NCBI GenBank assembly: GCA_017534965.1
Contig: JAFXVA010000038.1
Span: forward strand, 1 to 64,000
DNA: 64,000 nt
Origin: Elusimicrobiaceae bacterium
GTDB lineage: Bacteria; Elusimicrobiota; Elusimicrobia; Elusimicrobiales; Elusimicrobiaceae
Reading direction: 5' to 3'
Of the stretch, positions 49,793 through 51,305 are shown piece after piece (position 1 is the stretch's first letter; every line of letters begins with the position of its first letter). The notes under the pieces are model-generated. The model saw only the letters and a list, made by a program, of their open reading frames with translations. It did no database searches and was not told where the DNA came from. A program made the translations under genes and the position numbers.

Positions 49793-49894
49793 TTTGTTCC
49801 GTTTTATCTTATATTCTAATATTATCTTATTTGCTTTGTTTGGGCTTTATTGTTTGTCAGTTTTTTTGTTTGCTTGGTTTTGGCTCAAACTCGT

Positions 49895-50019
49895 GCAAAA
49901 TTATATTTTTCTATCTAAGCCACTAACTCGTAAGAAAGCAATTTTGTAAAGGTAAAAACTATTGCTTTCTTACTCGGACATAGACGGCTTGTTAGAACAG
50001 AAAAATATTTCAATTTTGC
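49895..50019. repeat. Long imperfect inverted repeat
   Basis: Outer arms GCAAAATTATATTTTTCT (49895-49912) and AGAAAAATATTTCAATTTTGC on the far side (ending 50019). Inner arms GTAAGAAAGCAA (49930-49941) and TTGCTTTCTTAC (49962-49973). The whole 125-nt piece can fold into one hairpin. It has no coding potential or transposase. Together with the efflux terminator and the ncRNA it accounts for most of the 705-nt gap 49760-50464. Confidence 0.55.
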
Positions 50020-50082
50020 AAACACTCCATATCGCCAAATACCAAGCAAACGGATAGAGAAAAAGCAATATTAAAAAAGGGC

Positions 50083-50111
50083 TTGACAATTTTACAAATT
50101 TACAATATACT
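50083..50111 (+). promoter_or_regulatory. Near-consensus sigma-70 promoter of the structured leader RNA
   Basis: TTGACA (50083-50088), 17-nt spacer, TATACT (50106-50111). Expected start near 50118. It is among the best promoters in the window by match to consensus. Confidence 0.8.
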
Positions 50112-50117
50112 ATAAGT

Positions 50118-50427
50118 GTAATAAAAATATTGCAAAGGTTTTAGAACTTTTGCGGTAATTCTCTAAGGAGAATAAGGTTTGTTATGACGGGTAGAAATGC
50201 CCGTAAAAAAATTTGAATCTGATTTTGGAACCTTGCGAAGAGCAAGGAGAGCTTTTGAAATTCAAAGGCATCTTTTCCCTCCAAAAACAGTCCGTTATGA
50301 AGGCGCGAAGTGGACGGCTTAATTACCCGTTTGCTTTGCGCCAAATGTCTGCCAGCTAACTGCTGGCGGACTACGGCTGTTATGTTTGGGTCAGGGAAAA
50401 GAGCTCAAACATAGCAGCCGTTTTTTT
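50118..50427 (+). ncRNA. Structured leader RNA / independent ncRNA upstream of pilin gene
   Basis: About 310 nt between a strong promoter and a strong terminator. Successive hairpins: GCAAAGGTT/AACTTTTGC (50132-50153), ATTCTC/GAGAAT, ACGGG/CCCGT, CCTTGC/GCAAGG (50231-50246) inside TTTGAAT/ATTCAAA, and GCCAGC/GCTGGC (about 50351-50366). Bases 50272-50294 can pair with 50374-50401 (CTTTTCCCT with AGGGAAAAG, plus CCAAA, CAG and CCG matches). This competes with the terminator stem formed by 50374-50388 and 50406-50420. I do not recognise it as tmRNA, RNase P, SRP or 6S RNA, nor as a standard riboswitch. Confidence 0.6.
50374..50427 (+). terminator. Intrinsic terminator of the structured RNA
   Basis: A 15-bp stem (50374-50388 with 50406-50420, one G-U), 17-nt loop and seven Ts. 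The 5' arm is also the partner of the upstream segment 50281-50294, so terminator and alternative pairing exclude each other. Confidence 0.8.
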
Positions 50428-50464
50428 ATTGCAAAAAAGCTAATTAAAATAATGGAGAATTAAA

Positions 50465-50893
50465 ATGAAAAACAATAAAGGTTTCACCTTAATTGAATTA
50501 TTAGTTGTCGTGTTAATTATCGGTATTTTGGCTGCTATCGCATTGCCTCAATACTTTAAAGCTGTTGCAAGATCCAGAGCTACTGAAGCTATGATGATCA
50601 CCAAAAATGTCAGAGATGCTGCTCAAAGATTCATGTTGTCGCACAATAATGCTTTTCCAGCAACCTTTGATGAGCTTGATATCACCATTGAACCAACTAC
50701 AACTACCTATGTATACACACTTGAAGATGGTTCTGTCCATGCAGAAGCTGTAGATAGAACCCATGGTGTTGACTTCGATTACAGCTTTAATGAAGGATGC
50801 ACTACACCTGTTTGCTCTGGCCCAGGACAAGCAGCAGACCAAACGTGCACTGGTTTAAATATTCCTACTGTAGCACCGGCAGAATGCCAGTAG
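50465..50893 (+). CDS. Type IV pilin (PilE-like)
   Basis: A 142-residue prepilin: short basic leader MKNNKG, processing before F, then FTLIELLVVVLIIGILAAIALP with Glu at +5. The amphipathic helix continues as YFKAVARSRATEAMMITKNVRDAAQRF. A small globular domain follows, with two cysteines near the end (CTTPVC, and further C residues in the tail, ending AECQ). It is assembled in the inner membrane by the type IV pilus or type II-like machinery. GGAG lies 9 nt before the ATG. It is downstream of the structured RNA, so its expression may depend on read-through of that terminator. Confidence 0.9.
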   Translation: MKNNKGFTLIELLVVVLIIGILAAIALPQYFKAVARSRATEAMMITKNVRDAAQRFMLSHNNAFPATFDELDITIEPTTTTYVYTLEDGSVHAEAVDRTHGVDFDYSFNEGCTTPVCSGPGQAADQTCTGLNIPTVAPAECQ

Positions 50894-51049: not shown

Positions 51050-51305
51050 AGCAGAGTGCTTTTTTGCAAGGATTTTGCGTTTAAATGCTAAACAGAGCAA
51101 ATGTTTTTGCGGAAAGTTTTGTGTCAAATTTGCTAAAATAGAGCACATTGTTTTTGCGAGGATTTTGGAGCTATTTTTAATTAGTTTTTCTTTATATAAA
51201 TAAAGAAAAACGATTTTAGAAATGAGGTATACCTAGAGCGGCTGGCAAGCCCGCGTATCCGAAATTTCTAAAAAATTAAAAATAGCCCAAAAGCCGAAGC
51301 AAAAA
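51050..51305. repeat. Composite dispersed repeat, copy 2
   Basis: Three direct units (near 51052, 51091 and 51137) with CAGAG or TAGAG, a T-run and G[CG][AG]A-GATTTTG-like cores. A palindrome follows with arms GCTATTTTTAATT (51171-51183) and AATTAAAAATAGC (about 51274-51286), carrying an inner TTTTTCTTTAT/ATAAAGAAAAA hairpin and a GC-rich tip GAGCGGCTGGCAAGCCCGCG. It ends CCCAAAAGCCGAAGCAAAAA next to the stop of minus-strand trxB. The order and the tip match copy 1 at 590-827, while the palindrome arms differ. It accounts for most of the 412-nt gap 50894-51305. Confidence 0.6.

Follow-up and report, generated by a model that had tools for sequence, protein, structure and literature searches.

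A multi-copy leader RNA with copy-specific barcode helices in Elusimicrobiaceae: a probable transcription attenuator ahead of pilin-like genes

A structured leader RNA precedes a type IV pilin-like gene of an Elusimicrobiaceae bacterium and probably, with a likelihood of about 70%, acts in cis as a transcription attenuator of this gene, with an antiterminator that would carry a barcode helix specific to each copy of the RNA. The leader lies in a stretch of 64,000 nt from contig JAFXVA010000038.1 (assembly GCA_017534965.1), which as a whole is called the window in the following. The attenuator is favoured because of the promoter upstream, the terminator followed by a same-strand ORF, the nearly balanced alternative folds, the covariation and the complementarity of the barcode arms. 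The RNA family, its structure, the barcode complementarity, the alternative folds and the position 5' of genes were computed directly. Beyond the first reading of this DNA in an earlier note, the analysis added a multi-copy family, a barcode for each copy, a palindromic loop in the hairpin at 50302-50342 and downstream genes other than pilins.

Architecture of the leader and its alternative folds

The earlier note had read a consensus promoter, several hairpins, a terminator with seven T, an alternative partner for the 5' arm of this terminator and a downstream pilin gene from the letters of the sequence, and all of these were recovered (Table 1), as was the helix CTTTTCCCT/AGGGAAAAG of 10 bp, proposed there to reinforce the alternative pairing. 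Promoter-like sites occur at a chance number in this region, so that the promoter call rests on the 11 matching positions out of 12 and on its location. The hairpins are borne out by the fold of 50118-50427 (MFE -134.7 kcal/mol; z -10.5; 0 of 100 shuffles equally good), and those ahead of the core are not present throughout the family, with minimal copies featuring a -10 box that directly abuts the core. A simple terminator scan accepts loops of 3-8 nt and hence does not report P4, the loop of which comprises 17 nt.

Table 1. Parts of the leader RNA and the adjoining pilin-like gene, in positions of the window
Feature	Position	Strand	Evidence or remark
Sigma-70 type promoter, TTGACA-17-TATACT	50083-50111	+	11/12 matches
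Expected transcript start	near 50118	+	promoter position
Optional 5' hairpins	50128-50157, 50158-50173 (within 50128-50204)	+	fold; not universal in family
P0 hairpin, ahead of core, optional	~50187-50204	+	fold; not universal in family
RNA family core (P1, P1a, P1b, v1, P2, P3, P4)	50208-50427	+	covariance model R1, 206.8 bits
P1 (50219-50229 with 50280-50290)	50219-50290	+	encloses P1a, P1b and barcode arm v1
P1a	50231-50247	+	inside P1
P1b	50251-50269	+	inside P1
Barcode arm v1 (TCTTTTCCCT)	50271-50280	+	hypervariable among copies
Switching strand	50281-50294	+	partner: P1 5' strand, or terminator 5' arm 50374-50389 (antiterminator)
P2 hairpin	50302-50342	+	loop with self-complementary TAATTA at 50320-50325
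P3 hairpin	50347-50371	+	9/10 pairs with double changes
P4 intrinsic terminator	50373-50427	+	arms 50373-50388/50406-50421, 94% complementary; closed by T7 run at 50421-50427
Barcode arm v2 (AGGGAAAAGA), in terminator loop	50393-50402	+	exact complement of v1
Shine-Dalgarno GGAG of pilin gene	50454-50457	+	sequence
Type IV pilin-like gene, 142 aa, presumed regulated gene	50465-50893	+	PF07963 N_methyl, 40.7 bits

Structures were obtained by nearest-neighbour folding with RNAfold, which takes no account of kinetics or tertiary contacts. When the 3' end of the transcript was moved along the leader, P1 prevailed up to 50372, the antiterminator between 50390 and 50414 and the terminator from 50418 on; for the transcript cut at 50402, the antiterminator represents the MFE. 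For the full-length leader, the energies of the alternative forms are nearly balanced (-133.7 vs -129.3), and the MFE structure retains P1 together with the terminator. Likewise, nascent transcripts of homologues ending at the equivalent of 50402 fold as antiterminator in 155 of 159 cases, by pairing of the terminator 5' arm with the P1 3' strand and of v1 with v2, and the terminator is formed by 149 of the 159 full-length RNAs. The median energy gap between the forms amounts to 7.2 kcal/mol across the homologues. The mutual exclusion of both pairings, as claimed in the earlier note, is thereby kept in about 97% of the 159 homologues when folded. Across the family, a G+C-rich hairpin followed by a T-run is maintained upstream of a gene, and the mutually exclusive antiterminator pairing is both predicted and conserved. 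As v1 directly adjoins the P1 3' strand, and v2 the 5' arm of the terminator, the v1:v2 helix extends the antiterminator. After swapping of barcodes the antiterminator was still predicted in 114 of 159 folds; thus, the barcode is on paper not strictly required for its formation.

According to the proposed mechanism, P1 would fold first as transcription proceeds. The emerging 5' arm of the terminator would then capture the P1 3' strand to give the antiterminator, which would be locked by the 8-13 bp v1:v2 helix of the respective copy. Survival of the antiterminator would allow readthrough of RNA polymerase into the gene; with P1 held, or v1/v2 occupied, the terminator would form and a leader RNA of ~310 nt would be released. 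Both the operation of this switch in cells and its direction are inferred. The v1:v2 helix could form a pseudoknot with an intact terminator instead of the antiterminator, although a helix of 10 bp within a loop of 13 nt looks strained. After termination, the leader may feed back on its own transcript.

Further elements were noticed in the surroundings of the leader. Nested inverted repeats lie between macB and the promoter, one at 49868-50051 (14 nt, 93%, 156 nt apart) and a second at 49930-49973 (13 nt, perfect, 18 nt apart); this region is also found in genome G013 and resembles a separate hairpin element. The intergenic stretch 51080-51290, 3' of the pilin gene, features motifs such as GAGGATTTTGGA and GGTATACCTAGAGCGG, which also occur 3' of the pilin at locus L151, and is possibly a dispersed repeat. 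Within the leader, a short ORF (50184-50216, ATG...TGA, MTGRNARKKI) with AGGAG upstream stops just ahead of P1.

Copies of the RNA and the genes behind them

Judged from the comparison of sequences, the leader core is a multi-copy, strongly conserved and uncatalogued RNA family. Searching 40 relatives at the DNA level yielded many matches per genome that align into one core with conserved junction linkers, and the covariance model R1 matches 80 of 90 genomes of the window's family. In a sample of the phylum, 88 of 295 genomes were matched, mostly in the same family and in a second one (f15), which is probably Endomicrobiaceae; three weak matches were located elsewhere. Deep scoring assigned 13 copies to the genome of the window, 52 to G063, 50 to G014 and 73 to G008, the last of these in a draft genome of ~1.5 Mb. 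A strict pattern, fitting mainly the version of family f1, occurs in 70 stretches among 84,980 species genomes, the records being named as Elusimicrobiota lineages and a few as uncultured bacterium only, with many records labelled gut or rumen; the same pattern, with its bias towards f1, gave 0 matches in viral contigs. Many of the genomes are MAGs in a fragmented state, and at copies of the RNA their contigs break or are probably chimeric. Matches of the model on the minus strand (24-35 bits) mostly overlap copies on the plus strand and were discarded as reflections of the self-complementary terminator. In G008, a palindromic repeat of the type CCTGAAAT...TTCAGGGTGACA ends shortly 5' of many copies (L094, L099, L133, L204), a similar one lies 5' of copies in G214 from the other family, and this repeat may explain some of the spread.

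That the RNA resembles no class recognisable by eye, as put in the earlier note, agrees with the search of Rfam 15, which at the gathering threshold returned tRNAs only and no match to the RNA itself, members from f15 included. At a permissive E-value, the best match on the RNA strand was atoC with 18 bits against a threshold of 50 bits. No conserved ligand pocket was recognised in the family, and no description of this RNA was found in open-licence papers.

The genomic context was counted for 100 copies that are followed by 400 nt of sequence or more, considering same-strand ORFs of at least 70 aa within 280 nt. Such an ORF follows the terminator in 96 copies at a median distance of 41.5 nt, encoding a pilin in 46 and another product in 50 cases; four copies had none. 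The other products, named by eye from sequence features and not by family search, comprise lipoproteins, outer-membrane, glycosyltransferase-like, zinc-ribbon, TPR and nuclease-like proteins. Some copies (L093, L070, L072) lie 5' of genes resembling DNA methyltransferases and the N-terminus of restriction enzymes, again by eye, and a link to defence genes is possible. The earlier note had offered control of the pilin or a function as free RNA; the location of the copies just 5' of same-strand genes favours the former and disfavours the latter.

The copy-rich genomes contain 112, 108 and 113 genes with the N-terminal methylation motif of pilins, compared to 30 in the genome of the window; these copy-rich genomes, G008, G014 and G063 (108-113 such genes), are ~1.5 Mb in size. 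The RNA is not obligatory for pilin genes, as G018 contains 76 of them without any copy. Paralogous pilin loci of the window genome, a near genome and G006 (L036, L039, L010) have the promoter and the region of the 5' hairpins in common and are devoid of the core. In G006, macB (97% identical) and trxB are adjacent, without the unit of RNA and pilin gene.

Covariation, barcode helix and P2 loop

Covariation among relatives, which the earlier note had put forward as a check, turned out to be very strong, with compensatory double changes in 41 of the 66 consensus pairs of the first alignment. In a further alignment test, double changes were seen in 50 of 74 pairs compared to 29 in shuffles, and 96% of the cells were paired (95% in the antiterminator version). 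P1 is itself conserved, featuring changes of the U-A/U-G type only, and is thus not tested by covariation. The assumption that its 5' strand would be more variable than the 3' strand was dropped, as the opposite was seen (entropy 0.04 vs 0.33). Conservation also applies to the pairs at the core of the antiterminator (CCAAA/TTTGG, AACAG/CTGTT), which hardly covary; accordingly, their support consists of conservation and the collinear barcode helix, and covariation neither confirms nor refutes them.

The barcode behaves differently from the other helices. It is unbroken over 9-13 bp in 30 of 31 copies, compared to a mean of 5.2 bp when arms were swapped between copies, and in some copies the helix reaches 13 bp by extending into bases of the terminator stem. 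In the alignment, nine of its ten pairs show double changes and none a one-sided change. Its 280 pairs are all Watson-Crick without a single G-U, set against 2-12% G-U in P1a, P1b, P2 and P3 (p 1.5e-10); a strictly Watson-Crick, copy-specific barcode of this kind is unusual for an RNA helix. A barcode is present in 36 of 39 elements of G063 and 29 of 33 of G014, and within both genomes all are distinct (36/36 and 29/29), the longest runs in trans between barcodes being 8 and 6 nt, respectively. In G008 nearly all are distinct; at least one pair of copies shares its barcode and another pair features 9-10 bp of cross-complementarity. Two G008 copies with mismatched arms (C76, C20) look like assembly chimeras, since the complements of these arms are found in elements truncated by the end of a contig (C128, C21).

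Between the loci L070 and L072, located 5' of orthologous genes, 5 of 196 positions of the backbone and 12 of 20 of the barcode are different, and neutral compensatory drift was rejected as the sole cause of barcode variation on these counts. The barcode was replaced there as a block, with the backbone remaining 97% identical. Identical barcodes were found in distinct backbones of other genomes in 13 pairs, compared to 0.4-1.3 expected. One such shared 10-mer, CAGTAACGCT, occurs in three genomes only as its own v1 and v2, and no trans partner with this full barcode was found in the three; for CTTTTCCCTCC, one extra match was detected, in G000.

The apical loop of P2 carries AATT, GATC, AGCT, CATG, TATA, TGCA, TCGA or CGCG, in many copies extended to a palindromic hexamer of the form T....A. 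Palindromes of 4 nt are present in 46 of 53 distinct loop contexts (mean of 22.5 and maximum of 33 in 1000 shuffles) and those of 6 nt in 29 (mean of 6.5, maximum of 18). Hence, the loop varies in sequence among copies and keeps its self-complementarity, and the copies from f15 show the same loop types. The natural reading would be a homotypic kissing contact.

Unique barcodes, missing G-U pairs and palindromes would be jointly explained by a leader that recognises itself, an attractive idea, which we regard as tentative and less likely than not. Terminated RNAs would target, in trans, the nascent chains from the locus that encodes them by homotypic kissing via the P2 loop, the released v1/v2 would capture the nascent partner and block the antiterminator, and the unique barcodes would stop dozens of paralogous loci from cross-silencing each other. 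The confinement of CAGTAACGCT to its own two arms is consistent with this, whereas kinetics favour pairing within the molecule, most 10-mers would be orthogonal by chance alone and the shared and cross-complementary barcodes of G008 do not conform. As self-recognition refines the attenuator and is no alternative to it, the probabilities of both overlap. Its extension to switches across the whole genome, in which the leader of each locus has an exchangeable barcode of its own as well as a palindromic loop for dimer formation and, once released, regulates its own gene only, is doubtful. If this extension held true, it would amount to addressing by RNA only, with dozens of near-identical pilin loci controlled independently.

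Competing explanations and known systems

It is unlikely that the RNA is a stable, pseudoknotted free non-coding RNA or a platform for protein binding, the terminator of which merely ends the RNA without involvement of the downstream gene. The placement of v1:v2 within the terminator loop, the full-length MFE holding P1 and the terminator, and the conserved compact architecture would fit such an RNA. However, the copies keep a tight same-strand spacing 5' of genes, about half of them pilins, v1:v2 is collinear with the antiterminator over up to 13 bp into the terminator stem, and the promoter region is also found at paralogous pilin genes that lack the core.

It is very unlikely that the structure serves DNA instead of RNA, as part of a mobile repeat or of a recombination site resembling an integron attC or a MITE. 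The many dispersed copies, the neighbour locus of G006 lacking the RNA-pilin unit and the blockwise exchange of the barcode at L070 and L072 are in line with mobility, but that empty locus shows no clean insertion junction, orientation and spacing relative to genes are fixed, copies are dispersed singly and viral contigs gave no match to the f1-biased pattern. In addition, G-U pairs occur commonly in helices other than the barcode, a sign of selection at the RNA level. Neither target-site duplications nor excised circles were seen, nor a linked recombinase beside the copies read. Ribosome-mediated attenuation by the peptide MTGRNARKKI-stop ahead of P1 is highly improbable and was rejected as family-wide control since, despite the ATG..TGA frame with upstream AGGAG in the window and AGGAG followed by ATG-stop in several copies of the genus, minimal copies begin transcription at the core without a start codon 5' of P1, other copies lack an ATG, and no short ORF overlapping the switch is conserved in frame or length.

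With the cis-acting attenuator as the preferred reading, the leader represents an uncatalogued structured RNA from a gut phylum that has been little studied. Its copy number is unusually high for a leader element, and the family is tied to a large expansion of pilins (as many as 113 genes with the N-methyl motif in a genome). It further raises the question of whether privacy of RNA sequence allows dozens of near-identical switches to work independently in a single cell.

Several known systems share single traits with this RNA. In plasmid attenuation of the pT181/pIP501 type, pairing with an antisense RNA selects between terminator and antiterminator, and variable loops set the specificity; unlike there, both complementary arms are located here in one RNA and no antisense transcript is implied. 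Large RNAs of the GOLLD/ROOL type and retroviral dimer-initiation loops feature loops that are palindromic or complementary and lend themselves to homotypic kissing. The P2 loop resembles them in being palindromic, with dimerisation suggested here by the palindromes only, and size, architecture and context differ. T-box riboswitches (Rfam RF00230) are multi-copy leaders in which a conserved scaffold combines the terminator/antiterminator pair with a recognition element that varies from locus to locus. The same combination of multi-copy scaffold, terminator/antiterminator and variable locus-specific element is found here, but the variable element pairs within the same RNA and not with a tRNA anticodon, the genes encode pilins and mostly envelope-type proteins instead of amino acid functions, and assignment as a T-box was rejected, as RF00230 gave no match. 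In Bacteroides, several loci for surface structures, the capsule operons, are controlled by UpxY through premature termination in 5' leaders, which acts via a NusG-like protein encoded beside the leader (PMC7819879). Several surface-structure loci with termination in the 5' leader as the (here predicted) step of control are common to both systems, whereas in the present family the RNA itself contains the variable element, and the copies that were read showed no linked regulator gene that recurs. Without membership in either group, the leader RNA has its closest working analogues in T-box leaders and the UpxY-controlled capsule leaders.
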